Below, in pieces: positions 29,611 to 47,471 of a stretch of 64,000 nucleotides of DNA. Each line of letters opens with the position of its first letter. Within the stretch, counting starts at the first letter, position 1. The DNA is from an uncultured Desulfobulbus sp. (GTDB taxonomy: Bacteria > Desulfobacterota > Desulfobulbia > Desulfobulbales > Desulfobulbaceae): contig NZ_OY762276.1 of assembly GCF_963665445.1 (NCBI RefSeq), positions 3,528,601-3,592,600 on the forward strand, written 5' to 3'. The notes below the pieces were generated by a model. It worked only from the letters and a program-made list of their open reading frames with translations, did no database searches and had not been told where the DNA came from. A program made the translations under genes and the position numbers.

Positions 29611-29745
29611 ATGTTTGCATTCATACCGATAGCCTGCAGCGTTGCCACCGCCCTCACCTGTCTCCTCGCCATTCAGACCGGTAAGGGCACCATGCGAACC
29701 CTCGAACGAAGAAAGAGACGAAATGCCCGAAAAGCTCGACCGTGA
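29611..29745 (+). CDS. Possible 44-residue membrane peptide
   Basis: A short frame with GGGAG five bases before its ATG. It encodes a hydrophobic helix (IPIACSVATALTCLLAI) followed by a very basic tail (RTLERRKRRNARKARP). It overlaps the start of the next gene by 23 bases in another frame, which suggests coupling. It is below usual gene-finder length; coding status is uncertain. Confidence 0.4.
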   Translation: MFAFIPIACSVATALTCLLAIQTGKGTMRTLERRKRRNARKARP

Positions 29746-30016
29746 AACCAAAAAAGAGATAGCGAAAATCGGCATGACCGCAGCTCTCGGCGTAACCGTG
29801 ATCACCGCCCCCTTCCTCAAGGGCAATCGGGTGATGAAAAACCTGCACACCGGTGCGGGCGTAGCCCTGGTCGCCCTGAGCCTGTGGCACCATTTTCTCT
29901 ATCAGCCGGAAAAACGCAAAGCCAAGTCGGAAGCCCTGGCAGCCGAGAAAAAGGCAAAAAACACCCCTCTGCCGCAGCCGGCAGCTCCGACCGAATCCGC
30001 TCCGGCCGCCCCCTGA
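29723..30016 (+). CDS. Small two-helix membrane protein, DUF4405-like helix
   Basis: A 97-residue protein with a first hydrophobic segment (IGMTAALGVTVITAPFL) and a second one framed by histidines, H42 and H56/H57 (LHTGAGVALVALSLWHHFLY). The tail is Ala/Pro/Lys-rich. The spaced His pair resembles one helix of cytochrome-b561/DUF4405-type haem proteins, so haem or metal binding is possible but unproved. The ATG at 29723 is preferred over an upstream ATG at 29642 that would add a proline-rich noise segment. Confidence 0.6.
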   Translation: MPEKLDRETKKEIAKIGMTAALGVTVITAPFLKGNRVMKNLHTGAGVALVALSLWHHFLYQPEKRKAKSEALAAEKKAKNTPLPQPAAPTESAPAAP

Positions 30017-32209: not shown

Positions 32210-32235
32210 TATTATTGTCAATCCTAAACATTGTC

Positions 32236-32633: not shown

Positions 32634-32999
32634 ATGCGCGAACAGACCATCATTGTCAGTCAACAAAACGGCCACCTCCATATCAATCTCAACGGCCATT
32701 TCACCGCGGAAACCGCGCTCCAACTCTCCAATGCCATCGCCCGCAACTACTTTGGAGAGGGGAGAATCTTCATCCATACCGGCAAGATTGCGTCCATATC
32801 GCCGCAGAGCCGTCGAACCTTTTCCGACATGATCGACATTCTCGATCTGCCGCCGGAAAAGATGTATCTGACCGGCAGCCCGGGGCTGAAGATCGGCCCG
32901 GATAAATCCCGGGTGATCGTTTATGGGAAAGCCAACAGCGGCTGCGCTGGCGGAGGATGTGATGACTGTACCTGTCACGACAGAAACGAACCGGAATGA
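32634..32999 (+). CDS. STAS-like protein with a cysteine-rich tail
   Basis: A 121-residue soluble protein. The first 95 residues look like a small STAS-type alpha/beta fold (HLHINLNGHFTAETALQLSN ... RIFIHTGKIASISPQSRRTF). The tail has a compact Cys/His set (CAGGGCDDCTCHD) that could bind iron, zinc or a cluster. AAGGAG precedes the ATG. It lies 60 bases upstream of flavodoxin and probably shares its promoter. No named family is claimed; STAS similarity is by pattern only. Confidence 0.6.
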   Translation: MREQTIIVSQQNGHLHINLNGHFTAETALQLSNAIARNYFGEGRIFIHTGKIASISPQSRRTFSDMIDILDLPPEKMYLTGSPGLKIGPDKSRVIVYGKANSGCAGGGCDDCTCHDRNEPE

Positions 33000-33059
33000 C
33001 GGCCAAAATGAGTGGCAATCATCCGGCGTAAACTCAAAACCACTTCAGGAGATGCACAC

Positions 33060-33506
33060 ATGGCTAAAGTATTGATCGTCTATGGATCGACAACAGGGAA
33101 CACGGAGAGTACCGCCAAGCAAATCGGCGAGATGCTGACTGCCGGCGGGCATGAAATCGTCATCAAGGATGTTCGCAAGACCACGGTCAACGAACTGGGG
33201 AACGGGTACGACATGACCCTGCTCGGCTCCTCCACCTGGGGCGATTCGGAAATCGAGTTCCAGGAGGATTTCGCTGATTTCTATGCGGAAATGGACAAGG
33301 CCGAACTCAAGGAGAAGAAAGTCGCGGTTTTCGGTTGCGGAGACTCCAGCTACACCTTTTTCTGCGGCGCTGTCGACCAGCTGCAGGAAAAAGTCGAAGC
33401 CCTTGGGGGCCTGCTCGTCACCGACCCGCTGAAGATCGACGGCGACCCCACTGACGCGGCCAGCGATATCAAGGATTGGGCGCAGGCGGTTGCAGACGCC
33501 TTATGA
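33060..33506 (+). CDS. Flavodoxin
   Basis: A 148-residue flavodoxin, an FMN-containing electron carrier that replaces ferredoxin when iron is scarce. The phosphate-binding loop is YGSTTGNTES near the start, and FMN ring loops lie at SSTWGDSE (about 55-62) and FGCGDSSYTFFCGA (about 88-101). Its length is normal for a short-chain flavodoxin. AGGAG eight bases upstream fixes the ATG at 33060 rather than the upstream one. Neighbouring FeoA and metal ATPases fit an iron-limitation regulon. Confidence 0.95.
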   Translation: MAKVLIVYGSTTGNTESTAKQIGEMLTAGGHEIVIKDVRKTTVNELGNGYDMTLLGSSTWGDSEIEFQEDFADFYAEMDKAELKEKKVAVFGCGDSSYTFFCGAVDQLQEKVEALGGLLVTDPLKIDGDPTDAASDIKDWAQAVADAL

Positions 33507-34029: not shown

Positions 34030-34326
34030 CTATACCTTGGCGACGTTGATCTTGAGGGCCATTCCTCCGCCCAGGGCGAAGCGGACACCATCCTTCTCTA
34101 TGAGCAGGGCACCGCCCCCCTGTTTCTGCACCACGGTTATCTCATCGTGCAGGTTGATCCCCATGCTCATGAGCCTTTCCTGCAGCTTCGTGCCAACAGG
34201 GAGTGAGGCCACCGTGACGACTTCTCCCACGCCGGCCAGGGCCAGGGGGAAGAGCTGTGAATGAGCCTGTGGGGGAACCTGGGTACAGGTCTGCTGTTCA
34301 GTGGGCATGCCGTGACGGTGACGCAT
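34030..34326 (-). CDS. FeoA-domain protein
   Basis: A 98-residue protein made of one FeoA/SH3-like domain (VGEVVTVASLPVGTKLQERL ... GINLHDEITVV, then GGALLIEKDGVRFALGGGMA) with a 25-residue N-terminal extension. FeoA partners the ferrous transporter FeoB, but no feoB is in this window. The ATG at 34326 has GGAG five bases in front; MPTEQQ six codons later is an alternative. It is probably last in a minus-strand run after ATPase 1. Confidence 0.85.
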   Translation of the reverse strand: MRHRHGMPTEQQTCTQVPPQAHSQLFPLALAGVGEVVTVASLPVGTKLQERLMSMGINLHDEITVVQKQGGGALLIEKDGVRFALGGGMALKINVAKV

Positions 34327-34417
34327 AGGAGCTCCAAAGTAAAAAAATTTCCGTGTAAATGCACATTGCGCCAGATGGCCTGTTGCAGCGTGCGAGATCG
34401 ATGTCAGCTGTGTCTCT

Positions 34418-36664
34418 CTAATTGCCTGCCAGGTGCGGCCTTTGCTCGATCGCCTTGTCGAAGGCAGAGGACTGCGGGCCGGAATCGTTCTGTTTTTCCT
34501 GGGGACGACGGGCCAGGGTTGAGGCGTTGGCCACGGCCAGAACCGTGGTCAGGTTGTGCAGCAGGGCCCCGCCCACGGGAGAGAGCAGGCCAAGGGTTGT
34601 CAGTCCAAGGATGACGCCGTTGAAACCCAGGGCCAGGGCGTAGCACTCCCTGATGGTGCCCAGGGTACGTCTTCCCAAGGCCAGGGCATCGGCCGCCTGA
34701 TCGAGCCCGCCGCGCTGAAGAACGATATCGGCGTACTCAACGGTCACATCCGCCCCCCCCTGCCCGATGGCCAGACTGAGGTCGGCCGCCGCAAAGGCCG
34801 GGGTGTCGTTGATGCCGTCGCCAACCATGGCCACCATCGCCTGGGGATGCTCTCGCTTCCAGGCGGCAATCCAGGCCGCCTTGGCCTCGGGGGATTGACC
34901 GCAGAGCACCTGGTCAAATTCGCGCTCGAGCTCCTCACCGATGCCCGCACGATTGTCGCCGCTCAAGAGGACAATGGGGCCGATGCCCAATTTTCGGAGA
35001 CGGGCCAGGGCCTCGCTGGTTCCAGGCCGCCTCCGGTGCCGCACCTGGATCGCGCCAATCAGCCGTCCGTCGCAGGCCACAAGCAGCTGGCCCCTGCCAG
35101 GCGGGACAGCAACATCCCGGCCATTGATGGCGACCCCGCGTTCGCGAAGCAATGTGCCCTTGCCAACGAGCACGGACTGCTCGCCAATTCGGGCACAGAC
35201 GCCCTGCCCGACCACCAGTTCCGGGTCCATGACCGGCAGAAGGCTGATCTGCCCGGCGCGGGCACGTTCGACCAGGGCCCGGCTGAGCGGATGCGACCAG
35301 GCCTGCTGGGCGCTGGCTGCAAGTCGCAGGACCGTATCTTCGCGGAAACGTCGGTCAAAAACGGTGATACCGGTGACCTCGGCGCTGCGGTCGGTGAGGG
35401 TGCCGGTCTTGTCCACCGCAAGCACATCGACCTGGCCGGCGATCTCCACATAGCGGCCCCCCTTGATGAGCACCCCCTGGCGGGCCGCGCTGCTCATGGC
35501 GGCACTGACCGCAACCGAGGTCGAGAGCCGCAGGGCGCAAGGACAGGTGATGATCAGCACGGCCATGGCCTGCATCAGGTTGCCGGTGATGAGAAAGGCG
35601 GCTCCGGCCAATCCAAGGGAGACCGGAACCATGGCCTGGGAGAAGCGGCGGCTGGTCAACTGCAGCTCGCCCGGGTCCTGTTCCGCGTGCTCGATCAGAC
35701 GAATGATGGCCGCCAGTCGAGTGTCCTCGCCGGCCCGTTCGACCCGGACCTGGAGAGAGCCGTCCACCAGCACCGTTCCCGCAAGCACTGCGTCACCGAT
35801 GGCGCGCGGCAGGGGCTCGTCTTCGCCGGTGAGGGCGGCCTCGTCGACCAGGGCCGTTCCCGAAAGGACGATACCGTCGGCGGGAACGACGTTGCCCATG
35901 CGCAGGACGATCAGATCGCCCGGCTGCAGCTCGGCCGCCTCCACCTCGACTTCCATGCCGTCACGCAGCAACCAGGCCTGCTGGCAGGTATCGGAGAGCA
36001 TCTCCCGGACCGCCTGACGGGTACGAATGCGAATCCTGTCCTCCAACCAGCTGGAGAGATTGAACAGCCAGAATACGGTCAGGGCGGCCAGGGTATTGCC
36101 GGTGAGCAAAGAAAAATAAAGGATCCCCGTTGAAATCAACCCCATATCCGGTTTGCCCGAACGACGGAAATTGTCCACCGCCTGGCGTTGGATGGGCAGG
36201 GAAATGGCAAAGGCGACCAGGGCCGGCAGGGTGAGAATGCGCACCGGGCCTGCGGTCGCGGGGGCCAGGGCGAGCAGCACCCGCTTGCCGTAGAGATAGA
36301 GCAGATAGAGTCCGGAGAAAAGCAGCGCCGCTCCGGAGATATGAGAATGGACATCCTGCCTGCGCGATGGCGCGGCCAGGCAGCCGCACTCCATTCGCGT
36401 TCCCCGAGGCGGAGCTGTGGTGAGACGCGCGATCGTGGCCTGAATATCGGCGAACAGCCGTGCAAGATCCACGGGTCCATGGGGATGGACCAGGATCACC
36501 GACCCGGAACGCCAACGAACCTGCACATCCTCAACCCCCTGGATGCGGGCAAGGGAACGGCGTACCTGCTCACAGACCTCGGGCTGGCGCCAGAGGCAGG
36601 AAAAACTGATTCGGGTGCGGTACCCGGTCCGCTGACGGATGCGATATTTCAGGGCGAGAGGCAT
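34418..36664 (-). CDS. P1B-type metal ATPase 1 (CPC type) with N-terminal HMA_2-like region
   Basis: A 748-residue heavy-metal P-type ATPase. Residues 1-90 look like a degenerate HMA_2 domain without the CxxC pair (SLARIQGVEDVQVRWRSGSV). The membrane metal motif is TCPCALRLST. The phosphorylation site is DKTGTLT, the actuator loop motif is TGED and the hinge is GDGIND. The ATG at 36664 is chosen because upstream frame residues are arginine-rich noise. It is one of three such pumps in 12 kb. Substrate is not established; the setting suggests iron or another transition metal moved into a compartment or out of the cell. Confidence 0.9.
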   Translation of the reverse strand: MPLALKYRIRQRTGYRTRISFSCLWRQPEVCEQVRRSLARIQGVEDVQVRWRSGSVILVHPHGPVDLARLFADIQATIARLTTAPPRGTRMECGCLAAPSRRQDVHSHISGAALLFSGLYLLYLYGKRVLLALAPATAGPVRILTLPALVAFAISLPIQRQAVDNFRRSGKPDMGLISTGILYFSLLTGNTLAALTVFWLFNLSSWLEDRIRIRTRQAVREMLSDTCQQAWLLRDGMEVEVEAAELQPGDLIVLRMGNVVPADGIVLSGTALVDEAALTGEDEPLPRAIGDAVLAGTVLVDGSLQVRVERAGEDTRLAAIIRLIEHAEQDPGELQLTSRRFSQAMVPVSLGLAGAAFLITGNLMQAMAVLIITCPCALRLSTSVAVSAAMSSAARQGVLIKGGRYVEIAGQVDVLAVDKTGTLTDRSAEVTGITVFDRRFREDTVLRLAASAQQAWSHPLSRALVERARAGQISLLPVMDPELVVGQGVCARIGEQSVLVGKGTLLRERGVAINGRDVAVPPGRGQLLVACDGRLIGAIQVRHRRRPGTSEALARLRKLGIGPIVLLSGDNRAGIGEELEREFDQVLCGQSPEAKAAWIAAWKREHPQAMVAMVGDGINDTPAFAAADLSLAIGQGGADVTVEYADIVLQRGGLDQAADALALGRRTLGTIRECYALALGFNGVILGLTTLGLLSPVGGALLHNLTTVLAVANASTLARRPQEKQNDSGPQSSAFDKAIEQRPHLAGN

Positions 36665-36714
36665 AGGGAGGCCTGAAAGCCCCGGACCCGTACTGAGGGT
36701 CCGGGGCAAGCGGA

Positions 36715-37005
36715 TTATTCGTTGCCCGATTCGGCGATGGCCTCGGCCTTGGCGTCCTCGAACTTCTCCTTCATCTCCTCGATCCCGCTCTGGGCAGCGG
36801 CGCTGACCTTGGCAATCGCCTTGACCACGCCTTTCTGCACGCTTTCGTTGGTCACGAGGAGGGTCACGGCCGCGCCGATCAGCGCCCCCTTCCAAAACTG
36901 GTTGTTCTGCAAGTCAAGGCCAAGAAAGGTGTTGGCCGGGGCTTGCGGGTACAGGGGCTGCACCACCTGCTGATAGTAGGCCTGAGCGGGTTTGTTCTGT
37001 TCCAC
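36715..37005 (-). CDS. Small glycine/alanine-rich membrane protein (WKGALIGAA motif)
   Basis: A 96-residue protein. It has a polar Gln/Tyr/Pro-rich start, one hydrophobic segment with the motif FWKGALIGAAVTLLVTN, then an amphipathic acidic tail (EEMKEKFEDAKAEAIAES). The same motif occurs in the 229-residue protein at 37501 (LWKGALVGAAATVLLTS), so they share a module. It starts with GTG, and AAGGAG lies six bases upstream. Perhaps it is a membrane-remodelling or scaffold protein of a metal compartment; no family is named. Confidence 0.75.
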   Translation of the reverse strand: MEQNKPAQAYYQQVVQPLYPQAPANTFLGLDLQNNQFWKGALIGAAVTLLVTNESVQKGVVKAIAKVSAAAQSGIEEMKEKFEDAKAEAIAESGNE

Positions 37006-37071
37006 GGTATGCTCCTTTTCTTATGATAGTGTCGATTATGTGATGAAAATTTGGGGTCGCACCCTGCCTGA

Positions 37072-37497
37072 TCAGGATTTGCTGAGCAGGTAGCTGACGC
37101 CGGTGGCGGTGGCCAGGGTCACCGCAAGGCCGAGCAGTCCGCCGCTGGTCAGGGAAGTGGAGGCGGCGGTGGCGGCGGCGGTGGCAATTCCGCCGACAGC
37201 GCCCCTGGAAAGGCTCTGGCTCACGGCCTCGCCCATGCTCATGTCACCTTCGCTGACCTTGTGCAGATTGGCGCCCATGGTGCCGGTGCCGACCACCACC
37301 AGACCGAACAGACCGGCGGCCAACACCTGGGAGGTCTGCACGGGGGCCGCGGGCAACTGCATGACCTGTGCGGCCTGCGGGACCGGCTGGGCGGCAGTCC
37401 CCAGGTAGGTGGGATTGTACTGGTGCTGGGCCATGGTCTGCGCCTGTCCCATGCCTGCGTCGGCAGCGGCGCCGTTCATGCTTGCTTGCTGTTGCAT
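37072..37497 (-). CDS. Small glycine/alanine-rich membrane protein
   Basis: A 141-residue protein with a Gln/Ala-rich soluble start of about 55 residues. Two or three hydrophobic, small-residue helices follow (VLAAGLFGLVVVGTGTMGAN and LLGLAVTLATATGVSYLL), with a loop rich in Ser/Gly/Ala between. AGGAG precedes the ATG. It is in an operon-like run with the genes on both sides (4-67 bases apart). The glycine-zipper-like helices resemble organelle or magnetosome-type membrane proteins in style only. Confidence 0.72.
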   Translation of the reverse strand: MQQQASMNGAAADAGMGQAQTMAQHQYNPTYLGTAAQPVPQAAQVMQLPAAPVQTSQVLAAGLFGLVVVGTGTMGANLHKVSEGDMSMGEAVSQSLSRGAVGGIATAAATAASTSLTSGGLLGLAVTLATATGVSYLLSKS

Positions 37498-37500
37498 AGA

Positions 37501-38190
37501 TTACTCCTTCCCGGATTTGAGGGGGTCAACGGTGGTCGAGGCAGGAGCCCCGCTCGCCTTCTGTTGCGGTTTGAGTCCCGGAAACACGCTGCCAAAGGTC
37601 TTGCCCATGGCCTCGCGAACCGGTTTGCTGGTGAGCAGCACCGTGGCAGCCGCGCCGACAAGGGCGCCCTTCCACAGCTGATCGTACTGCGCGGTGTTGG
37701 TATAGAGGGTCTTCACCAGGTCGGAAACCGTGGTCTCGCCCTGGACGAACCGCTCAAAGGACTGCATGATCTGTCCGTAGCGCTGCTGTTCCAGTGCCTG
37801 CCGAGCGGCGGCCTGTTCCGGAGTCTCCGCCTGTACGTAGACCACGCCGGGCTGTGGGGGGGGAACCGGCTGCTGATATATCGGCTGCTGGTACACCAGC
37901 CCGACAAAGACCACCTGCCCGCTAACCGGATCGACCGCATATCCGGGCGGCAGGGTTTGCTGCGCCCACTGATGGTGGGGCTGATGCCCTTCCGCCGCCC
38001 CTGCTGCGGCGGCGTACGATTCAGCGGCAGTTGCCTTGATTTCGGCGTTTTGGACCGTTGCTTCCGCGGCCTCCGGTGGGGCAACCGCTGCCTGCGGTGC
38101 TTGATCCGTTGCAGCCTTGGGCGGCGATGCCGTCATCGTTTCCATGGCCGCGTCTTCCGGTACCATGGCGTGCGGATCTCCCTGTATCAT
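37501..38190 (-). CDS. Proline/alanine/glutamine-rich protein with the WKGAL module
   Basis: A 229-residue protein. About 90 residues are Ala/Pro/Glu-rich and probably disordered. A Tyr/Gln/Pro-rich stretch (VYQQPIYQQPVPPPQPGV) follows, then a helical region and a hydrophobic module LWKGALVGAAATVLLTS before a Lys/Pro tail. It shares the module with the 96-residue protein at 36715. AGGAG lies seven bases before the ATG at 38190; an upstream GTG at 38214 is less likely. Function unknown; possible tether or crowding factor of a membrane structure. Confidence 0.72.
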   Translation of the reverse strand: MIQGDPHAMVPEDAAMETMTASPPKAATDQAPQAAVAPPEAAEATVQNAEIKATAAESYAAAAGAAEGHQPHHQWAQQTLPPGYAVDPVSGQVVFVGLVYQQPIYQQPVPPPQPGVVYVQAETPEQAAARQALEQQRYGQIMQSFERFVQGETTVSDLVKTLYTNTAQYDQLWKGALVGAAATVLLTSKPVREAMGKTFGSVFPGLKPQQKASGAPASTTVDPLKSGKE

Positions 38191-38353
38191 ATTTTTCTCC
38201 TCTCCTGTTGCCACTGTTCAAAACTCAAGGATGCGTCATCGTCAAAAGACAGAAATCGAGACATTTTCACGAAACAAAGCAAAGAGTTCTTGATCGTTTT
38301 TTCAAGGTCAAACGGGTCTACATCCCACCCCGGACAAGGTTCTTGCCTCATTT

Positions 38354-38734
38354 TCAGGCATTCGCTGGTTGGGCCTCATCACGGGCAAGTCGTTGAGGCA
38401 CGGTCTCCGACAGAATCACCATCAACTGTTCGCTCACACTGTCGCGTTTGCCCGGAAACTGTCCGACAGATGCGACTTCTTCCCAGAGAGAAGGGGGAAG
38501 TATCTCGGTATCATATTGAATAATCACCGACAGCGCCTTCTTGTTCACCCGATAGTCCACTATTCCTGGAATGGACGCAATAATCGATGTCATCTCCCTT
38601 TCATTGACCGCCGCAAGTTTCTGGGCACCGCTCCAGCTGGCCTTGACGCGAATGCGGCCGGGAACATGGTGGGCAATGTTCAGATACAGCATGTGGTCAA
38701 GCAGACCATCGACGAGCTGCTCATTAGTGTACAT
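38354..38734 (-). CDS. Stand-alone HMA_2-like metal-binding or chaperone domain protein
   Basis: A 126-residue protein with the HMA_2-type opening HHVPGRIRVKASWSG and the matching second half (IPGIVDYRVNKKALSVIIQY). The same fold is found at the N-termini of the three nearby ATPases. No CxxC is present, so if it binds metal it does so by other residues. AAGGAG lies four bases before the ATG at 38734, which overlaps the end of the upstream YceI-like gene by 11 bases. It is likely an accessory of the neighbouring pumps. Confidence 0.78.
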   Translation of the reverse strand: MYTNEQLVDGLLDHMLYLNIAHHVPGRIRVKASWSGAQKLAAVNEREMTSIIASIPGIVDYRVNKKALSVIIQYDTEILPPSLWEEVASVGQFPGKRDSVSEQLMVILSETVPQRLARDEAQPANA

Positions 38735-39251
38735 GAATCTCCTTTTCATCTCCTGAGGGAATGAATTCAAGATGTGCTTTGATATCGACAATATCCCGCA
38801 CGCACAGCATCAACAGGCGTGGTGCCTTCAACCCGTAGGCCCTGAAGGACCACTTGCACTGCAGCTCCCAGAGCAAACGGCCGCCCTCCTCCCGGACCGT
38901 CCCGGTGACGGGCAACTGGCGGCGGATATCGACAAAGGAGAGGATGCCGAGCATCCGGACCCGCCAACACCCGCCCCCCTCGGAGACGATCTCCTGGCAT
39001 TGGCTCAGGGCAAAGGAGGCATGGGGGTGCTCGGCTAAGGAAAAATACCGGCTCATCGCCTCGGTACGATCCGGGTCCGCGGTATCAAAACAACCGGTCT
39101 CGACTTCAGCCGCAAGGCTCTGCAGAATGCCGGCGCTGAAATTCGCCTCCAATGTCACCTGCACCCCCTCCACCGCCCAGCCCTTGAACGCATGCAGCGG
39201 GGCTCGGGCAATGAAATCGACCCGACTGTTGTCGGTCAGCACATACTTCAA
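38724..39251 (-). CDS. YceI-like protein without a signal peptide
   Basis: A 175-residue YceI-type lipocalin-like barrel. The domain begins at once (KYVLTDNSRVDFIARAPLH) and shows HPHASFALS and GILSFVDIRRQLPVTG blocks. Most YceI proteins are periplasmic with a leader; none is present here, so this one is probably cytoplasmic. The start is a TTG at 39251, chosen because AAGGAG lies seven bases ahead. The gene begins 20 bases after ATPase 2 and overlaps the HMA_2-like gene by 11 bases. It may carry a hydrophobic ligand or lipid for the membrane system. Confidence 0.75.
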   Translation of the reverse strand: MKYVLTDNSRVDFIARAPLHAFKGWAVEGVQVTLEANFSAGILQSLAAEVETGCFDTADPDRTEAMSRYFSLAEHPHASFALSQCQEIVSEGGGCWRVRMLGILSFVDIRRQLPVTGTVREEGGRLLWELQCKWSFRAYGLKAPRLLMLCVRDIVDIKAHLEFIPSGDEKEIHVH

Positions 39252-39271
39252 ACTCGTACTCCTTTCATATA

Positions 39272-41668
39272 TCACGTGTTGAGGTTGGTTTTCGGCGGGA
39301 CCAGCCGAAGCTGGGCCGGGTTCACATCCGGCAGCAGAACCAAGGAGTCCCGCCGGTGTTCGCTCTGAGAGCAGGGATGATCCTCGCGTTCGCAGCGCTT
39401 GCAGCATTTCAGCGGTTCCACCGGCGGTTCCCAGCGCAGCAGCCGCCCCGAGTTGAGCAGAATGCCCCCGGTGTGGACGATGTGGATCAATCCCGCCAGG
39501 ACAGGTGAAAGGAACCCGAGCATGGCCAGCGCGGCACCGATCAGGTCGGTGGACACGGCCAGATAGTGGTTCTGGTCGATGATGCGCATGGTCTGATGGC
39601 TGAGATTGCGGACCTTCATCAACCCCTCGAGATCGGAATCGGCCAGGGCGATATCCGCGGCCTCCATGGCCACCTCGGCACCGGCTGCGCCCATGGCCAC
39701 ACCGATGTCCGCCCGGGCCAGGGCGAGTGCGTCGTTGACCCCGTCGCCGACCATGACCACCGAGCCGTTCCTTTTCAGCTCATCGACCCGCTCAGCCTTC
39801 TCCTCGGGCATCAACTCGGCCCGGCACTCGTCGAAGGGGAAGACGTCCATGAGCGTCTCCGCAATCTCGCGACTGTCGCCGGTGACCAGGTGCAGCGACC
39901 TGACCCCGTCGCGGCGCAGGCAGTTGAGCACCCTCCCCGCCTCCGGCCGCACCGGATTGGCAACGCCGAGCATGCCCTGGACACCGCCGTTTTTCGCCAC
40001 ATAGACCACCGTGTTGCCCATGGCGCGCTGACCGGCCGCTTTCTTGTCGAACCAGCGGACATCGATTTCATGTTCATCCATGAACTGGCGGTTGCCCACC
40101 AGGATCACCGCATCACCGCCCACGGTGCAGAGGACGCCGCGACCGGCCTTGAAGTCGCAGACGGCGTGCGGCTCCGGATTGAGATTGCGCTCCTGGGCCG
40201 CGGCGAGGATGGCCTTGGCCATGGGATGCTGGTTATGCGATTCCGCGGTGGCGGCCATGGCAAGGATGGCATCTTCGCTCATCGAAGGAGTGCGGCCATG
40301 GACGGCTATCACCTCCGGCTGCTCCATGGTCAGGGTGCCGGTCTTGTCGAAGCAGTAGATATCGGCCTGGCCAACCGTTTCGAGATAGAGCCCCCCCTTG
40401 ATCAGGATCGAATGCCGGGCCGCATTGGCCAGGGCGGCGGTGATGGCCGATGAGGCGGCCAATACGGTGGCGCATGGACAGGACATCACCAGCATCACCG
40501 TCAGCGCCCGCATGGGGTCCAGGGTCAGGAGCAGGGTCAGGGCGGTGGCGGCGAACCCGACTTTCATCAGCCGCCCGGCCAACTGATCCGCCTTCTGCTC
40601 CACCGGTGCCTTGTTCGCCAGGGAGTCCTCCACCATCTTCATGATGTGGGCCAGGTAGGTGTCCTCGCCGGTCTTGGTGGTCTGGATGAACAGCACCCCC
40701 TGGCTGATGATGGTGCCGGCGAAGACCTGGTCGCCGCGACCGCGCATCATAGCCTCGGAGCGACCGTTGATCGAGGATTCGTCCACCAGGGCCTCGCCCT
40801 CGCTGACCAGTCCGTCCACCGAGATTCGCTCGCCGGTGTGCACCGCAACCACGTCACCGGGCCGGATCTCGCCCACCGGGGTTTCCACCTCCATGCCGTC
40901 GACCATGACAAAGGCGTTGGCCGGCGCCACCTGGAGGATATCGCGAATCGCCTGACGGGAGCGCTGGGCCACGTACTCCTCGGTCAGTTCGGCCACGTTG
41001 TAGATCCAGAGGATCTGCAGGGCGGAAAAGGCCTGGCCCATGGCGATGGTGATCAGCGAACCGGCAGCGAGGAAGGGCGTCACCGTGACCTTCTTCTTGA
41101 CCATGATATCCTCAAGGGCCTCGCGGGCAAGCGGCAGGGCGCCAAGCAGGGCCACCGCCCCGAGCAGGCTGAAGGGCGTCTGCACCAGCGGCAGCTTGAA
41201 GACCCACATTCGCAACGCCGCATAGGCCATGCAGCCGCTGAGCCAGATCACCCGCCGAAGCTTGGTGCCAAAGGAGGCCTTGGGTTCGCAATCGCAGACC
41301 GAACAGGCCTGTTTGAACCCGGGCAGGGTTTCCACCGCTTTCGGTGGTTCGGCAGAGGTCATCGGACGAAACACCTGCTGCACGATCAGGGTCAGCAGGG
41401 TGCGGCTGCAGATTCGATCGGGATCGAAAACCACGATCACGGAACCGCTGGTCGCCCTGGCCTCGACACTGAGCACGCCCCCCGCCTTCAGGAGATGGGC
41501 ATGCATCCATCCGGATTGCCGATCCCTGCCCCGCAGGGCCGCGACCCGTACGCGCATACGGCCGGCCATGGACTGCTTGACCGCAACTCCGGCCTTTTTC
41601 AGCAGGGAGGTGGTCAGACGAAAGGGTGGAGTGCTTACCTTGGAAGAACATGTTCGAACTGCAGACAT
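39272..41668 (-). CDS. P1B-type metal ATPase 2 (CPC type) with Cys-rich segments
   Basis: A 798-residue heavy-metal P-type ATPase. The start has an HMA_2-like region (AGRMRVRVAALRG) and a Cys cluster before the first helix (CSVCDCEP). The membrane motif is MSCPCATVLAASS, and DKTGTLT, the TGD-type hinge (LVTGDSREIA) and GDGVND are intact. In the actuator loop the usual TGE is replaced by NGRSE (SSINGRSEAMM). The C-terminus carries another Cys group (CCKRCEREDHPC). I use the ATG at 41668; a GTG at 41728 is open. It is probably first of a transcript ending with FeoA. Confidence 0.9.
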   Translation of the reverse strand: MSAVRTCSSKVSTPPFRLTTSLLKKAGVAVKQSMAGRMRVRVAALRGRDRQSGWMHAHLLKAGGVLSVEARATSGSVIVVFDPDRICSRTLLTLIVQQVFRPMTSAEPPKAVETLPGFKQACSVCDCEPKASFGTKLRRVIWLSGCMAYAALRMWVFKLPLVQTPFSLLGAVALLGALPLAREALEDIMVKKKVTVTPFLAAGSLITIAMGQAFSALQILWIYNVAELTEEYVAQRSRQAIRDILQVAPANAFVMVDGMEVETPVGEIRPGDVVAVHTGERISVDGLVSEGEALVDESSINGRSEAMMRGRGDQVFAGTIISQGVLFIQTTKTGEDTYLAHIMKMVEDSLANKAPVEQKADQLAGRLMKVGFAATALTLLLTLDPMRALTVMLVMSCPCATVLAASSAITAALANAARHSILIKGGLYLETVGQADIYCFDKTGTLTMEQPEVIAVHGRTPSMSEDAILAMAATAESHNQHPMAKAILAAAQERNLNPEPHAVCDFKAGRGVLCTVGGDAVILVGNRQFMDEHEIDVRWFDKKAAGQRAMGNTVVYVAKNGGVQGMLGVANPVRPEAGRVLNCLRRDGVRSLHLVTGDSREIAETLMDVFPFDECRAELMPEEKAERVDELKRNGSVVMVGDGVNDALALARADIGVAMGAAGAEVAMEAADIALADSDLEGLMKVRNLSHQTMRIIDQNHYLAVSTDLIGAALAMLGFLSPVLAGLIHIVHTGGILLNSGRLLRWEPPVEPLKCCKRCEREDHPCSQSEHRRDSLVLLPDVNPAQLRLVPPKTNLNT

Positions 41669-41850
41669 AACTCGTGTACCATCCTGTTTGGCAAGGTTAT
41701 CTTCGGGGAAAGCAACTTCTTTTATCACAACGAAAAAACATCATAAGATTGGGTACTTGACAACAAGAGCCCTGTCGTTTACCTTATATCCACCATCAAA
41801 GGCTGCCACGATATTCGGGCAGAGGCCATTTTATCTTCTAGGAGGCATCC
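41669..41850. promoter_or_regulatory. Divergent promoter region of the metal island
   Basis: An AT-rich gap separates ATPase 2 (minus) from the two small membrane genes (plus). It holds a TTGACA hexamer at 41757-41762 reading to the plus strand; a good -10 at the ideal distance is not evident (TTATAT lies 21 bases on). On the minus strand TATGAT at about 41744 is a possible -10. Confidence 0.4.
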
Positions 41851-42033
41851 ATGTTCTATCTCCCCCTGACCACCACACCGGTTGGCTGGCTGATCCTCGG
41901 CCTGGGCGGGTACGCGCTGTACCAGGCAGGCAAGAAAAAAGGCGAGGAAGAGGCCGCAGCCGCACAGATCACCGCAGTTCCCGCACCTGTGGAAGTCCAT
42001 CAAGAATCCGCGGAGCACAAAGGAGAAAAGTAA
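41851..42033 (+). CDS. 60-residue membrane protein with TTPVGWLILG helix
   Basis: A single hydrophobic helix (TTPVGWLILGLGGYALY) is followed by a Lys-rich hinge (QAGKKKGEEE) and an acidic tail. AGGAGG lies five bases before the ATG. It is a paralogue of the next gene (NPVGWAVLGVAGYLTYKAGKKAGK) and shares one base with it (TAATG), so both are made together. Function unknown; divergent to ATPase 2. Confidence 0.75.
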   Translation: MFYLPLTTTPVGWLILGLGGYALYQAGKKKGEEEAAAAQITAVPAPVEVHQESAEHKGEK

Positions 42034-42314
42034 TGTCGCATCCCATCATCGGTATCCCGCTGTTGACCAGTAACCCTGTCGGCTGGGCCGTTCTCGGCGT
42101 GGCCGGCTACCTGACCTACAAGGCTGGAAAGAAGGCCGGAAAACGCAGCGTCGAGCAGGTCGACCAGGAGTGCCTGACCGACCGCGCCGTCAAGGGCGCG
42201 ATGAAATCGGTCTACAAGGCCAAGCTGAAAACCGACGCCATGTTCAGCTCGACCAAGGAAAAATACGGCGAGATGTGGAAAGAGGCCCAGGCCGAAGCCA
42301 GTCAGCAGGCCTGA
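42033..42314 (+). CDS. 93-residue membrane protein, paralogue of the preceding gene
   Basis: One N-terminal helix with NPVGWAVLGVAGYLTYKAGK is followed by a 60-residue amphipathic, YtxH-like tail (VYKAKLKTDAMFSSTKEKYG). AGGAG precedes the overlapping ATG. The helix-plus-charged-tail layout suits a membrane-associated structural protein. Confidence 0.75.
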   Translation: MSHPIIGIPLLTSNPVGWAVLGVAGYLTYKAGKKAGKRSVEQVDQECLTDRAVKGAMKSVYKAKLKTDAMFSSTKEKYGEMWKEAQAEASQQA

Positions 42315-42436
42315 ATCGCCATCGCCCCTCATCCCATGTTTTCCCCTTTCCGGCAGAGGCTGTACGCCTTTGCCGGATTGTTTTCCCTCTATCGCCCACA
42401 GCAGACACCGCATCCTTCGCCGCCCTGATTATCCTC

Positions 42437-43195
42437 TCACGACAGCTGATCCGCGGGGGCCGAATGTCGTGCAAATTCTTGACTCCTGACGATCACCTGT
42501 CCGGCCTGGGTTCGGTTGAGGTAGAGCCGCAGGCCGCTCTGGCTGGAGATGGTCACCGGTTCCGCCCCGGGTTTGTGCAGTTCCCTGGTCTGCTCGATCG
42601 ATTCGAGCAGCAGATTGCACCCGGGGCTGATGCCGTGGGTCTGCAGGTGTTCCCTCACCTTTCGCCCGCCGATGATTTCCAGCAGCTCGAAGGATTGCTT
42701 GCGGGTGGCGAAGTAAAACTGGCGTTCGCCCCCATCCTCTCCCCTGCCCCACAACCGGGCCGCCTCGCCCTCGGTCAGCCGGGTGCGCTCGCGGCGGTCG
42801 ATCAGAGTTACGTAATCCATGTGCGGCAAGGCACGGATGAAGGTGACTCGCGCCTCTTCCGACAGGCCGAGGTGGCTCAGGGCATGGGCGCAGCCGCGGC
42901 CACAGGACATGGTCTCCACATGGCCCTGCTCCTTGCGCTTCATTTCCACCAGCGGTTTGCGCTCCCCGGAATCCACATGGACAAAGACACGAATACCCAG
43001 ACCTGCCGGGACCACCACATCTCCGCGACTGGTACGTACCCGAACCGGGAAATAGTTGACCTCCTCGTCATGGCGCATCAGATGACTGCCACCATAGAGC
43101 CCCAACCGCTGCAACCATCGCTTCAGTCCGGGATGGGTGACGTCCAGCAGGGTGAGATCGGTGTGCACCGGCGCATCCAGCAATGAAGAGTACAT
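42437..43195 (-). CDS. Protein with two FeoA-like domains and a Cys motif between them
   Basis: A 252-residue soluble protein. An N-terminal FeoA-like domain (LTLLDVTHPGLKRWLQRLG ... VRVRTSRGDVVVPAGLG) spans about residues 14-90. A middle helical part carries SCGRGC (about 97-102), and a second FeoA-like domain lies at about 168-245 (SFELLEIIGGRKVREHL ... GLRLYLNRTQAGQVIV). Its ATG follows directly on the TAA of ATPase 3, so the two are coupled. FeoA domains regulate iron transporters; a double-domain form joined to a pump suggests a regulator or chaperone of ATPase 3. Confidence 0.75.
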   Translation of the reverse strand: MYSSLLDAPVHTDLTLLDVTHPGLKRWLQRLGLYGGSHLMRHDEEVNYFPVRVRTSRGDVVVPAGLGIRVFVHVDSGERKPLVEMKRKEQGHVETMSCGRGCAHALSHLGLSEEARVTFIRALPHMDYVTLIDRRERTRLTEGEAARLWGRGEDGGERQFYFATRKQSFELLEIIGGRKVREHLQTHGISPGCNLLLESIEQTRELHKPGAEPVTISSQSGLRLYLNRTQAGQVIVRSQEFARHSAPADQLS

Positions 43196-45325
43196 TTACT
43201 TGCCCCCCTGATCGTCGGAGACGGCCTTGACGGCCTGTATTTTCGGGACCCTGCGCCCCCTCAGACCGGCATAGCCGAGGATGCCGACTGTGCTGAGGTT
43301 GTGGAGCAGGGCAGCAGCCACCGGCTGCACCAGACCAAAGGTTGCCAGAAGGAGGAAGGTGGAATTCAGGCCTATGGCGGCATAGAAGGAGTTGAGAATG
43401 GTCTGCTGGCTGTAGAGGGCCGTCAACCGCCCAGTCAGCAAACAGTTCAAGTCTTCGCGCAAGAGGATCACCTGCGCGGATTCCTTGGCCAGATCGGCAC
43501 CCTGGGGCAGGCAGATGCCCACCTCCGACGACACCAGGGCCGGCGCGTCGTTGACGCCGTCACCAATGAAGCCGACGCGGTGCCCCTGCTCCTGCAGGGA
43601 CCGGACAATGGCGGCCTTGCCCTCGGGTTTCAGCTCCCAGTGGACCTCGTCCACCGAGGGGAGCTGCGCGGCGATCGCCCGGGCGGTGAGCTCGGCATCG
43701 CCGGTGAGAATGACGATCTTCTCGATGCCAGCCTGCTTCAGCCCGCGAAGCACCGATTCAGCCTCGGGCCGCAACTCGTCGCGCAACCCGATCACCCCCA
43801 CGAGCTCCTCCTCACAGGCCACGTAGAGCAGGCTCTTGCCCTGCTGCTGCAGTTCGGTTGCGATCTCGTCCACCGCATTGCAGGCAATGCCTTCATCATC
43901 CTCGATAAAATGACGGCTCCCCACAAGGACGTTCTTGCCGTGGATATAGGCGGAGACGCCATGGGCGACGATGAAGTCGACCTGGCTGGTGGGCGGCAGT
44001 TCCAGTCCATGTTCATGGGCCGCAGCAACCACCGAGGCGGCGACCGGATGGGTGTAATGCTCCTCGGCTCCGGCCGCGAGTTGCAGCAGATCCAGATCAT
44101 CAAAGCCGTTGACGCCGTGCAGGTCGGTGACCACCAGCTGTCCCCGGGTCAGGGTGCCGGTCTTGTCGAAGATGAGCGTGTCGATCTTGGAGAGGCTGTC
44201 CATGGCCTGGGCACCCTTGAGAAGAACGCCCTGCTTGGCGGCGGTGAACATGGCCACGCGAACCGCAACCGGATTGGCCAGATCGATGACGCAGGAGTAA
44301 TCGACCGTGAGCACGGCCGCGGCCTTGCCCAGGTCTCGGGTGATCGCCAACAACCCAAGCCCCAGACCAAAGGTGACCGGGACCAGACGGTCGGCAAGGC
44401 GGTCGCTGTCCTTCTGCGACTCGGATTCACTGCGCAGCGACTGCTCAAGAAAGGTGGCTATCCGCGCCATCGAGGTCTCGCCGCCGACATGGCTGGCAAC
44501 AAAGACGATGCGGCCGCTCTCCACCACCGAACCGCTCAGCACCTCGACACCGGGATGCACATGCACCGGCACCGATTCGCCGGTGATCGAGGCGGTATTG
44601 ATCGAGGCCTCGCCTTCGACCACCTCCCCGTCCAGGGGAATCAGTTCGCCCGCACCGCAGACGACCCGATCGCCGATGCGGGCCTCTTCAAGAGGGATTT
44701 CCAGCTCGCGGCCATCGACTACGATCCAGATCTTCTCCACCTGGGGTTTGAGCAGACTCTTGAGCAGACCAGTGGTTCGATTTTCACTGAGCTCCTGCAG
44801 ATACTCGCCGGTTGAAAGCAGGAACACGATGCTCGCCGCGGTGAAGTAATCCTGCCGCACCAGCGAGAAGAGCACGGCCGAAGCATCGAGCACCTCGACC
44901 TTGATGCCTCGGGTCCACAGGGTCGATAGGCCCTCGAATATGACCGGCAGGGAAAAGACCACCGCAACCGGCGCGGCGAACACCTTGGGCAGAGCGAGCA
45001 ACGTGAGCGCAAGAGTGCCGCGAACGGCCAGGGAGAGCGGCGACTGAAGGGTCCTCGCCTTGCCGTTTCCGCCGAGGGTCCGTCCTGGGAGCTCAGCCAT
45101 ATAGCGCAATATGGCATTGCGGGTGGCATCGCGCCCATCGTGGTCAATGGCCACCGAGGCCGCACGGCTGTTGATCCGTACGCTGGTCACTCCGGGAATG
45201 GATTCCAGCCCGGCTTCGAAGAAATCCGGGTCCAGACTGTGATTGCCGATCAGGGGGCTGCGCAGACGGATGCGTCCCCGAACCTCATGGGCAATGGAGA
45301 TAGGTTGTAGCCCCCAGGGGTTCAC
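43196..45325 (-). CDS. P1B-type ATPase 3 with YSC in place of CPC (ferrosome FezB-like candidate)
   Basis: A 709-residue heavy-metal P-type ATPase. It opens with an HMA_2-like domain (AHEVRGRIRLRSPLIGNH, GVTSVRINSRAASVAI). The membrane metal motif lacks CPC and reads VDYSCVIDLANP (about 44287-44304). DKTGTLT, TGES and GDGVNDAP are intact, so it should be catalytic. Absence of CPC recalls the P1B-6 type to which FezB of ferrosomes belongs; this subclass call is inference. GTG at 45325 overlaps the upstream stop. It is coupled to the double FeoA-like gene downstream. Confidence 0.9.
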   Translation of the reverse strand: MNPWGLQPISIAHEVRGRIRLRSPLIGNHSLDPDFFEAGLESIPGVTSVRINSRAASVAIDHDGRDATRNAILRYMAELPGRTLGGNGKARTLQSPLSLAVRGTLALTLLALPKVFAAPVAVVFSLPVIFEGLSTLWTRGIKVEVLDASAVLFSLVRQDYFTAASIVFLLSTGEYLQELSENRTTGLLKSLLKPQVEKIWIVVDGRELEIPLEEARIGDRVVCGAGELIPLDGEVVEGEASINTASITGESVPVHVHPGVEVLSGSVVESGRIVFVASHVGGETSMARIATFLEQSLRSESESQKDSDRLADRLVPVTFGLGLGLLAITRDLGKAAAVLTVDYSCVIDLANPVAVRVAMFTAAKQGVLLKGAQAMDSLSKIDTLIFDKTGTLTRGQLVVTDLHGVNGFDDLDLLQLAAGAEEHYTHPVAASVVAAAHEHGLELPPTSQVDFIVAHGVSAYIHGKNVLVGSRHFIEDDEGIACNAVDEIATELQQQGKSLLYVACEEELVGVIGLRDELRPEAESVLRGLKQAGIEKIVILTGDAELTARAIAAQLPSVDEVHWELKPEGKAAIVRSLQEQGHRVGFIGDGVNDAPALVSSEVGICLPQGADLAKESAQVILLREDLNCLLTGRLTALYSQQTILNSFYAAIGLNSTFLLLATFGLVQPVAAALLHNLSTVGILGYAGLRGRRVPKIQAVKAVSDDQGGK

Positions 45326-45741
45326 GGTTTCACCGTCGCATCAACGGCACAGAGTTCGCGTTTGCTCTTTTTCATGGTCGCATCGATCATGTACCCGGCT
45401 GCGGCCAGGACAGTCGCGGCAAGAGCGATCTGCAGCGGCGTGCTGCGACTGGTCGCCTTGAGAATCAGGGTTGCGGCAGCACCTTTGGCCATACCGTTGA
45501 GTACGGCCTGGGCAGGAATCATGGCGCCGTTGCGGACATCGACCCAGTTGGAACCGATGGAAACCGCGCTGGCAATGGTCAGGGCGCCAACCATGCCGCC
45601 GAACAGTGGGGTTGGTTCCCTCATCAAAATGGGGCCATTCTCCATTCCAGGTCCGGGCTGCAGTCCTACGGGCAAGGTGCCGAACGGGCTGCTGCTATTC
45701 ATTTGGCCTGCGAAATTTCTTTTTTCATAGACGCTCTTCAA
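45322..45741 (-). CDS. Glycine/alanine-rich membrane protein upstream of ATPase 3
   Basis: A 139-residue protein. A polar Pro/Gly-rich start is followed by three short hydrophobic, small-residue segments (FGGMVGALTIASAVSIG, MAKGAAATLILKA, LQIALAATVLAAAGYMI) and a Lys-rich end. TTG at 45741 has GGAGG nine bases before it; ATG at 45702 is the alternative. It overlaps the ATPase start (GTGA). In style it belongs with the other small membrane proteins of the island. Confidence 0.68.
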   Translation of the reverse strand: MKSVYEKRNFAGQMNSSSPFGTLPVGLQPGPGMENGPILMREPTPLFGGMVGALTIASAVSIGSNWVDVRNGAMIPAQAVLNGMAKGAAATLILKATSRSTPLQIALAATVLAAAGYMIDATMKKSKRELCAVDATVKP

Positions 45742-45780
45742 GGTACACAGCCTCCGGGATATTGAACGCTGAAAACTCTA

Positions 45781-46278
45781 TCAGGATGCGGGCCCCTTTT
45801 CGGGTGGAGCGCACCTTTTCTGCTGCTGCAGATACTGTTGGAATCGCTCCGCGACCCCCAATTGACCACTCCCCAGATCCTCCCGAGCAAAACGGGTGTA
45901 CAAGACTAGGCGTCGTATCAGATTGGTGGATGTCGAGTGCTCCAATTTACATGCAGATTCTTCGGCCAACTCTTCTTCGACCCCGAGAATTTCGATAAAA
46001 AATCGCTTCAGCGTTTCATGACGATGATAAATCTCGCGCGCTGCCGTTTCTCCGTTTGAGGTGAGTGTAATTGGCCCATATGGGATGTAGTTGATCAATT
46101 TTTTCTCTGTCAACACATGAAGCGCTTCGGTAACCGAAGGACCGGTGACCCCGAGTCGGGTAATTAACTCTTTCGGACGCACCGGAACCCCGGCAAGGCC
46201 TTGAAGATATATGGCCTCGAGATAATCTTCCAGACTGGAACTGAGGCTTGTGCCTGCCGTCATTTTGGTTTGGTCCAT
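45781..46278 (-). CDS. DtxR/MntR-family metal-dependent repressor
   Basis: A 165-residue regulator with the DtxR winged helix (SLEDYLEAIYLQGL ... LGVTGPSVTEALHVLTEKKLI) followed by the metal and dimer domain (REIYHRHETLKRFFIEILG ... ACKLEHSTS). There is no SH3 C-terminal domain, as in MntR-like members. It would bind Fe2+ or Mn2+ and repress nearby operators. I use the ATG at 46278; a GTG at 46323 is open, and neither has a strong ribosome site. It is probably the first gene of the transcript leading into ATPase 3. Confidence 0.88.
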   Translation of the reverse strand: MDQTKMTAGTSLSSSLEDYLEAIYLQGLAGVPVRPKELITRLGVTGPSVTEALHVLTEKKLINYIPYGPITLTSNGETAAREIYHRHETLKRFFIEILGVEEELAEESACKLEHSTSTNLIRRLVLYTRFAREDLGSGQLGVAERFQQYLQQQKRCAPPEKGPAS

Positions 46279-46394
46279 ACTTTGTGGATCATCCGGATGA
46301 ACTTTGTTTCCTCGATGGATCACTTGCCACGCATGCCTCCTCCTAACGCCAACAGTTTAAAGACTGCTTCTTAAATTCAGGAAGCACAATCGAG

Positions 46395-46408
46395 TTAGGG
46401 TCATCTAA
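46395..46408. promoter_or_regulatory. Palindromic box TTAG-N6-CTAA upstream of the DtxR-type gene
   Basis: TTAGGGTCATCTAA lies about 117 bases before the regulator start, in an AT-rich stretch, and could be its own operator. The gap 46,279-46,847 otherwise shows no convincing gene. Confidence 0.45.
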
Positions 46409-46847: not shown

Positions 46848-47249
46848 CTACGGCCGGGACCCAGCGGCCAGTGTCGGTGGCCGGGGGAGCATCGTTGCGA
46901 TGATCACCATGGTCGCCCCGCAGGTCGGGCAAATGATTGCCGGTTGTTGTTTCTGGTTGCGGACCAGGGAGCGCCCAAGATAGACAAGGGCCTTCTCGCC
47001 GGTGCCCACATCCTTGCAGTCAACCACCCACTGTTCGGGGCAATCGGAGGGAACCGGCAGCTCGTGTTCGACCAGGGACTGGAGAAATTTTGCCCGGAAC
47101 ACCTTGGCCAGGGCCTTGTGGCTGAAAAGATATTTCCCGGACCTTTCTTTCCACAGCCCTGTTTTCTGGTTGATGCTCGCCGCTGGCATGACCACATGGA
47201 TGTGGGGATGATAGTCCAGATTTCCATGTGCGCACGTCACATATTTCAT
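46848..47249 (-). pseudogene. IS91-family transposase remnant
   Basis: A 133-codon fragment with the IS91 landmark YHPHIHVVMPAAS and the YLGRSL segment, joined directly to the zinc-type end (ICPTCGATMVII). The N-terminal region and the stretch with the catalytic Tyr pair are missing, so this is a truncated and internally deleted copy. It is not functional. Confidence 0.75.
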
Positions 47250-47403
47250 CCTACGTCATACTAAGCACATCATCTCTAAGAATCATTAGAAAAAATCAAA
47301 CAGGACGAAAGCAGATGAACGGTAAAACCCAGAAAAAAATGCTCAAGGCTCAGGTGTTCGGCAACACCAAGAGGGGAGGTCTTCAGAACCATGGGGCCAC
47401 CAA

Positions 47404-47471
47404 TCAATGCAGCATAGGTTCAGTGATCCCCATGGCTCGCGCTAATTTTTTGCGGGTGGCTTTACGCGTCT
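47404..47471 (-). pseudogene. 3' end of an XRE-type gene interrupted by the IS element
   Basis: The minus strand here reads TRKATRKKLARAMGITEP and stops at 47404. It is a fitting C-terminus for the truncated helix-turn-helix gene on the other side of the insertion sequence. Confidence 0.6.

Follow-up and report, generated by a model that had tools for sequence, protein, structure and literature searches.

Ferrosomes are recently recognised iron organelles, and the bacteria that carry them, or the fez genes, include Desulfovibrio magneticus, Rhodopseudomonas palustris, Shewanella putrefaciens, and Clostridioides difficile. According to a passage of one report, six fez genes, RPA2333–2338, make ferrosomes in R. 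palustris (PMC12016538), and a passage of another describes FezC as a DUF4405-like cytochrome that binds haem, at a site that may arise by homodimerization (PMC11334425); P1B-6 ATPases are listed with Fe(II) in Table 4 of PMC7558416. The subject of the present study is an island of three P1B-type pumps, six small proteins, and FeoA-like proteins in a 64,000-nucleotide stretch of DNA, hereafter the window, which covers positions 3,528,601–3,592,600 of the single-contig 5.08 Mb genome of an uncultured Desulfobulbus sp. An initial annotation had read this island as a ferrosome-like iron compartment cluster, and the reading is partly supported here: the island is likely an expanded subtype of the ferrosome-type (fez) cluster that would serve to build iron stores enclosed by a membrane, and in it a FezB-like pump (pump 3) is accompanied by a protein of three FeoA-like repeats and by a CPC-type pump (pump 2) that has lost the glutamate of its TGE motif.

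Results

A conserved island of fourteen genes

The island holds 14 genes between positions 34030 and 46323 of the window, with 94% of the sequence coding. Twelve of them lie on the minus strand in two blocks, which in transcription order run from a DtxR-type regulator through the small protein s6 and pump 3 to a 252-residue triple-FeoA protein, and, beyond s4 and s5, from pump 2 through a YceI-like protein, a free HMA_2-like protein, s3, s2, s1, and pump 1 to a single FeoA. Every part named in the initial annotation was found where it had been placed: pumps 1, 2, and 3 each pass the NCBIfam heavy-metal P-type ATPase model TIGR01525, the DtxR-type regulator and the leaderless YceI-like protein exceed their Pfam cut-offs, and the free HMA_2-like protein is present at a score slightly below its own (Table 1). 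The tight packing described there holds for the coding density, while the genes said to lie on both strands amount, on the plus strand, to s4 and s5 only; similarly, the range 34030–46408 encloses all of these parts but leaves outside it a FezC-like gene and a small open reading frame (ORF) overlapping its start.

Copies of pump 3 with 62–81% identity occur in eleven other genomes among 257 of the same order. The named records closest by pump 3 are those of Desulfobulbus species, followed by Desulfocapsa and others, and the named relatives comprise Desulfobulbus rhabdoformis DSM 8777 (locus L039), D. alkaliphilus (L043), and Desulfocapsa (L040, L045). The order DtxR–(s6)–pump 3–triple FeoA–(s5 and s4, divergent)–pump 2–(YceI)–HMA_2–s3–s2–s1 repeats, as far as the contigs reach, in 12 other loci, namely those of the eleven genomes and that of D. 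rhabdoformis, and because of this recurrence the arrangement is more than chance; it is real and conserved. All 12 of these loci have s4 and s5, s6 was detected in eight, and a DtxR gene stands beside s6/FezB in nine (10 of 13 with the window), while six show YceI, as does a second contig of genome G049 (L160).

Pump 1, with its TGE glutamate present throughout, was found in eight genomes: that of the window, L039, L054 (G055), L074 (G066), L156 (G161), L157 (G061), L158 (G114), and L160 (G049). It is absent where the sequence continues past s1 in G056 (L044), G142 (L056, L077), and G045 (L159), and the contigs of G034 and G172 end before its place. The single FeoA follows pump 1 also in G055 (L073) and G049 (L160); none was found within 1.2 kb of pump 1 in L039.

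Pump 3 groups with FezB-like pumps

A pump tree of 64 rows was built by a quick method that gave long-branch warnings, with a midpoint root used for drawing only; the pumps of L002, L004, L005, and L030, which are not P1B of the usual kind, were left out of the tree and of the motif counts. Pump 3 lies in a clade of 29 rows (Shimodaira–Hasegawa-like approximate likelihood ratio test, SH-aLRT, 100), all of which have D[YF][SA]C in the fourth transmembrane segment (TM4), and this clade takes in pumps that stand beside HMA_2-DUF4405-like genes (L049, L058, L061, L067); some of its members adjoin FezC-like and YtxH-like genes. Escherichia coli CopA and ZntA fall into a separate clade of 15 rows. 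Pump 2 (12 rows) and pump 1 (5 rows from four genes, with a long-branch warning) form clades of their own, each with SH-aLRT 100 and apart from CopA and ZntA. Tested as a FezB, pump 3 is thus outside the CopA/ZntA clade and carries in TM4 the DYSC motif, which we take to be the mark of P1B-6; its TM4 reads DYSCV, DYSCA being the commoner form, and TGE, DKTGT, HP, and GDGVND are all kept. The initial annotation had named a grouping of this pump with copper or zinc pumps as the outcome that would speak against its reading, and the tree gave the opposite. At their N-termini, the Pfam HMA_2 domain scores 32.6 bits in pump 2 and 27.4 bits in pump 3, above and below the 30-bit cut-off, respectively, and pump 1 has no significant match.

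Two further groups of pumps were encountered. A second FezB-type pump stands after the triple FeoA in L046 (4792–6885), L048 (12621–14717), and also L109–L114, L116, L117, L125, and L126, and the TM4 of these 12 sequences reads FACAVKF in nine and YACAVK, YVCSVK, or YACSVK in the rest. A small clade with DYSCGVRLSTA in TM4 comes from L063–L065 (at 12012, 9090, and 9354), where HMA_2-like genes and a DtxR relative lie nearby.

The same module stands beside FezB-like pumps in other lineages

Fifty-two loci were mapped with profiles and recounted by strand and TM4 class, the labels pump 1 and pump 2 being set by the TM4 motif, since the iterated profiles overlap. A FezB-like pump is present in 43 of them and is directly followed by an FeoA protein in 32 of the 43. 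Pump 2 is seen as well in 27 of the 32, and the contigs of the other five (L038, L041, L046, L047, and L057) are cut at that point, those of L038, L041, and L057 with part of pump 2 at their edge. The other 11 FezB loci, which have smaller gene sets, show neither a directly following FeoA protein nor pump 2. Pump 2 and the FeoA protein are thus a regular feature of a widespread subtype, and the three-pump form that includes pump 1 is that of the eight genomes listed above. Because loci L109–L126 are mainly the highest-ranking entries of the FezB list, the uniformity of their layout is subject to a selection bias, of which the whole-order genome counts of pump 3, pump 2, and the MamC profile given here are free.

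In Desulfovibrionales and a Deferribacterales genome, the genes typically run pump 2, HMA_2, s3, s2, s1, FezC-like, FezB, and triple FeoA, with one gene out of its place in each of L109, L110, L120, and L121. The free HMA_2 protein precedes s3 in most loci that show s3, and the megaplasmid of Vibrio sp. THAF190c, an unannotated record whose frames were read in this study, has HMA_2, s3-like, s2-like, s1-like, and FezB in a row. Counterparts of s1, s2, s3, and the HMA_2 protein stand beside FezB-like pumps in Vibrio and Cereibacter, both of which have s3 in their clusters, in Arcobacter (no s3 seen), and in the Desulfovibrionales and the Deferribacterales genome; relatives of s1 directly precede FezB in Vibrio, Azospirillum, Arcobacter, and Cereibacter. 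The cluster of Azospirillum brasilense (L067) consists of six genes in a row, which encode an HMA2 protein whose C-terminal half is FezC-like, a second HMA_2-like protein, a small protein, a possible s2-like protein that was placed by eye and gave no match to the s2 profile, a YtxH protein, and FezB, and these six would correspond to R. palustris RPA2333–2338. With pump 3 in the FezB-like clade and the HMA_2–s3–s2–s1 module beside such a pump recurring in the Vibrio megaplasmid, the Desulfovibrionales, and the Deferribacterales genome, the reading of the island as ferrosome-type is well supported; the initial annotation had also considered that the small proteins might have no relation to fez clusters, and the reverse is seen for s1, s2, s3, and HMA_2.

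Pump 2 lacks the TGE glutamate

At the TGE position of the A-domain, the 49 pump 2 sequences have Arg in 47, Asn in two, and Glu in none (28 of 28 Arg in a first set, 18 Arg and 2 Asn in 20 more that include divergent members, and Arg in one from G049); the residue in the window is Arg303, in SINGRS. The glutamate is kept in all 79 of the other pumps counted, that is, 45 FezB-like, 12 second FezB-type, 14 ordinary CPC, four pump 1, three DYSCG, and one other. DKTGT, HP, and GDGxND are each intact in 28 of 28 pump 2 sequences, DKTG and GDGxND also in the further 20 of 20, and CPC is invariant in the 19 that were aligned. The clade is a single lineage, and its counts are not independent events. 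The two extra CPC-type pumps of the initial annotation are both present, but pump 2 is an unusual one.

Pump 2 was detected, at E 1e-200, in 10 of the 257 genomes in the order of the window. Each of these ten belongs to the 12 genomes that carry pump 3, and the other two of the 12, G061 and G045, have a partial pump 2 at contig ends. In a second order, that of genome G257, it occurs in 42 of 297 genomes, 40 of which are among the 161 with a FezB-class match; 38 of the 44 copies lie 3.7–5.1 kb from FezB on the same contig and four on another contig of a FezB genome. Expanded clusters, as judged by these counts of pump 2 in two orders, are not rare.

The TGE motif is described as responsible for dephosphorylation in a passage of PMC11970713. 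Pump 2 would most likely be a metal-responsive switch or structural partner of FezB, not a cycling transporter, because its TGE glutamate is gone and the loss is conserved: it should still bind metal, as CPC is kept, and take phosphate from ATP, as DKTGT, HP, and GDGxND are kept, and it would not release the phosphate in the usual way. Alternatively, pump 2 might be a normal transporter that is dephosphorylated with the help of another acidic residue, so that the loss of TGE would be mechanistically meaningless, and the invariance of the phosphorylation, ATP-binding, and CPC motifs in the 19 aligned sequences does suggest selection on an active cycle. That explanation, however, has to accommodate the retention of Glu in every comparison pump outside the clade and a substitute, Arg, that is not a conservative change, and we consider it unlikely.

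An FeoA-type protein abuts pump 3

The genes of pump 3 and the triple-FeoA protein abut, with zero bases between them. PF04023 is marked in 27 of 27 aligned members of this protein family, and the window protein scores 32.7 bits and the single FeoA 49 bits against a cut-off of 23. An AlphaFold2 model made with 27 sequences (predicted local distance difference test, pLDDT, 88) has three repeats of similar strand–helix pattern. Profile matches between the repeats reach 92% for 1 and 2, 72% for 2 and 3, and 28% for 1 and 3, repeat 3 being the weakest, and five shuffled versions of repeat 1 all stayed below 2%; scores against the FeoA family alignment were set aside, as this alignment may itself hold triple-FeoA rows. 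The initial annotation had counted one single and one double FeoA-like protein, and the single one stands; the double one is rejected on the model and the repeat matches, as the protein carries three FeoA-like repeats although Pfam marks one. A Foldseek search with the model had FeoA entries among its top matches, none of the matches reaching E 0.001. We know of no earlier pairing in which an FeoA-type protein serves as a subunit of a P-type pump.

The small proteins form three pairs, and s2 is related to MamC

By profile alignments with disjoint rows, the six small proteins form three related pairs, s1/s3, s2/s6, and s4/s5; for s2/s6, hhalign gave 94% and E 1e-7 over 86 columns. Described initially as six small Gly/Ala-rich membrane proteins, they are indeed six, with 22–32% Gly plus Ala, but hydropathy points to a membrane character for s2 and s6 only, which alone reach 1.6 over 19 residues; the hydrophobic stretches of s1, s3, s4, and s5 are weaker or shorter, and these four may also be membrane proteins.

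The NCBIfam MamC model NF038051 matches s2 at E 1.5e-5 and 25.2 bits over model positions 5–88 of 97, and does not match s6. Among 31 aligned s2 members, which include rows placed by eye, that of Azospirillum among them, 28 match the model with E no higher than 0.01, the lowest value being 1.7e-16. In the order of the window the MamC profile finds nine of 257 genomes, all of them island carriers, at places that each adjoin s1 or s3 and none of which exceeds the cut-off; in 14 control genomes it finds none. In the second order it finds 42 of 297 genomes, 41 of which also carry pump 2 (hypergeometric p 4e-48, relatedness ignored), and 43 of 44 places lie within 12 kb of pump 2 or FezB when one place per cluster is used, the other eight of 52 places being second copies in the same genomes. 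Forty of the 161 FezB genomes of that order have a MamC match, most FezB clusters being without it. The best score among the relatives is 62.1 bits, and nothing exceeds 100 bits, the curated cut-off, in the 554 genomes searched. As judged by these profiles, s2 is a distant homologue of MamC that belongs to a wider family, and not a MamC equivalog by the model's own rule.

A FezC-like protein and the surroundings of the island

The FezC-like protein has 97 residues. Related small proteins are encoded close to FezB in L038, L046–L048, L051, L056, L057, and L068 (Arcobacter), and ~7 kb from FezB in L055. His-42 and His-56 are invariant in 23 of 23 aligned members, which include the HMA_2 fusion proteins of smaller clusters. 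The gene occurs in nine of the 12 island genomes, and was not found in G061, G114, and G172. The overlapping ORF encodes one hydrophobic segment and a basic tail, FIP.AC..A..LT...A..TGKGT.......RRNA.K, and has the same spacing and a similar sequence in six of nine FezC-like loci, the window included, where it was found through a GKG letter filter. Near the FezC-like gene, at 25170–29101 on the minus strand, is a row of genes for two imelysins and a di-haem oxidoreductase.

Between the FezC-like gene and the island lie a 664-residue protein with no Pfam match (30227–32221, minus strand), the sole relative of which in the 52 mapped loci (1096 bits) is ~4 kb past pump 1 in G066 (L074), and a 121-residue protein of no Pfam family with a flavodoxin (32634–33506, plus strand). 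Relatives of the latter pair occur near a FezB-like pump in L058 and L062; L039, L046, L116, and L123 have a flavodoxin as well. Just past the DtxR gene, at 46848–49410 on the minus strand, frames resemble transposases by eye, one of them split, and G+C falls to 0.51. A tRNA search and an Rfam search at the gathering score found nothing in the window. Upstream of the DtxR gene, s4/pump 2, and the FezC-like gene, no 12-mer is common to three or more of 16 regions, and the inverted repeats in these regions are single, with no common pattern visible.

Table 1. Features of the island and its FezC-like neighbour; coordinates are those of the window.
Feature	Coordinates	Strand	Basis and remarks
DtxR-type regulator, first gene in pump 3 block	45781..46323	-	PF02742 and PF01325 over cut-off
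s6, small membrane protein, remote s2 relative	45322..45741	-	hhalign
Pump 3, FezB-like P1B ATPase	43196..45325	-	Tree and motifs; TM4 DYSCVIDLANP
Triple-FeoA protein	42437..43195	-	PF04023, AlphaFold2 repeats; begins at base after pump 3 stop
s5, small protein, PVGW..LG..GY..YKAGKK	42033..42314	+	Conserved; s4 relative
s4, small protein	41851..42033	+	Conserved; s5 relative; final base is first base of s5
Pump 2, CPC-type P1B ATPase with N-terminal HMA_2	39272..41668	-	Motif counts; TGE changed to NGR
YceI-like protein without leader	38724..39251	-	PF04264, 28.3 vs. 23.7 bits; TTG start picked by ribosome-binding site
Free HMA_2-like protein	38354..38734	-	PF19991, E 4.4e-6, 27.2 bits, below Pfam cut-off of 30
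s3, Pro-rich N-terminus and [FL]WKGAL.GAA hydrophobic stretch	37501..38190	-	s1 relative
s2, MamC-related small membrane protein	37072..37497	-	NF038051, E 1.5e-5
s1, YtxH-like small protein	36715..37005	-	PF12732, weak, E 0.012, below cut-off
Pump 1, CPC-type P1B ATPase, CPCALRLSTS	34418..36664	-	Own clade in tree; TGE kept
Single FeoA, loosely associated	34030..34326	-	PF04023
FezC-like half-cytochrome candidate	29723..30016	+	Alignment, H42 and H56 conserved; outside the annotated range
44-residue single-TM basic ORF overlapping FezC-like start	29611..29745	+	Same spacing and similar sequence in relatives

Discussion

If the island is a fez cluster, pump 3, as its FezB, would move Fe(II) out of the cytoplasm and into vesicles that stem from the inner membrane. 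Fe(II) is the presumable substrate in this genome because of the published P1B-6 class and of the FeoA and DtxR partners. The small proteins, s1/s3, the MamC-like s2/s6, and s4/s5, might coat and shape the vesicle membrane or template the mineral, while pumps 2 and 3 may offer their HMA_2-like N-termini as docking sites to the free HMA_2 protein, and the two-His FezC-like protein might set the redox state of the iron in store. Pump 3 would have the triple-FeoA protein, produced in step with it, as its regulatory subunit, analogous to FeoA for FeoB. Pump 1 is probably an active second pump, and DtxR would tie expression of the island to metal supply.

Several observations weigh against this interpretation. 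The pump tree is a quick build with long-branch warnings, and none of the Fez proteins or operons that have been named and proven by experiment has a place in it. The candidate FezA-like protein, s1, stands before pump 1 in the window and not before FezB, and s2 reaches 25 bits against the MamC cut-off of 100. Pfam DUF4405 appears, weakly, in 13 of the 23 FezC-like members, and the protein of the window is not listed among them; moreover, the FezC-like gene is only loosely tied to the cluster in its own lineage, being 4.4 kb from pump 1 in the window, ~760 kb from the island in G055, and on other contigs in G034, G056, and G161. Two genomes of the second order, G536 and G540, have pump 2 and no listed FezB, and another residue might make up for the change of Glu to Arg in pump 2. 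The substrate and location are putative, and the DtxR-type regulator could also answer to manganese.

These points leave room for an island of plain metal export or tolerance in the plasma membrane, in which the three pumps would expel iron or another metal and the small proteins would be pump subunits, with no organelle involved. Three P1B pumps, DtxR, FeoA, and YceI are all compatible with ordinary metal homeostasis, and the organelle role of the island genes is a predicted one. None of the three pumps, however, groups with CopA or ZntA, a pump without the TGE glutamate in all 49 sequences would be odd for efflux, the small-protein module has its counterparts in clusters that look like the six-gene fez operons, and s2 is matched by MamC, a protein of an organelle, and we regard an export island as improbable. 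That ferrosome-like parts have been re-used in a compartment or pump set for Mn, Co, or Zn is more improbable still: TM4 of pump 3 has DYSCV and not the commoner DYSCA, the DtxR family includes manganese sensors, and CPC pumps usually mean Cu or Zn, but an FeoA-family partner is directly behind FezB in 32 of 43 loci and the imelysin and di-haem oxidoreductase genes nearby are presumably iron-type neighbours.

Within the reading of the island as an expanded fez cluster, it is possible, and we propose it tentatively, that such clusters hold a P-type ATPase that never cycles and that at least two phyla have retained as a metal-sensing switch of FezB, that they share the MamC family with magnetosomes, so that two iron organelles would have drawn on a common stock of proteins, and that the triple FeoA is an FeoA-type subunit of a P-type pump. 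None of the listed titles of papers found with ferrosome terms since 2022 names MamC, FeoA, or a TGE-less pump, passages having been seen for a few of the papers, and the MamC and TGE points may or may not be new. The subtype offers three testable handles on ferrosomes, namely, a partner pump expected to be unable to dephosphorylate, a putative FeoA-type subunit of FezB, and a link in sequence from ferrosomes to magnetosomes.

In gene content, the island has in common with fez operons a FezB-like pump, a weakly YtxH-like small protein, HMA_2 proteins, and a candidate FezC-like two-His protein, and it adds the TGE-less CPC pump, the triple FeoA, further small proteins, DtxR, YceI, and a third pump; it is also split into two minus-strand blocks with s4 and s5 between them. 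The clusters of Desulfovibrionales and others (L046–L048, L051, L109–L121, and L124–L126) share with the island pump 2, where the contig reaches it, as well as HMA_2, s3, s2, s1, the FezC-like protein, FezB, and the triple FeoA, whereas their FezC-like gene is usually just before FezB, s4/s5, DtxR, and pump 1 were not detected in them, and 12 have the second FezB-type pump. The magnetosome membrane protein MamC (Mms13) resembles s2 over nearly the full length of its profile, from which s2 differs in staying below 100 bits. Finally, the triple-FeoA protein is in the same Pfam family as FeoA, with a score over the cut-off, and differs from it in having three repeats per chain and in standing behind a P-type pump, not FeoB.

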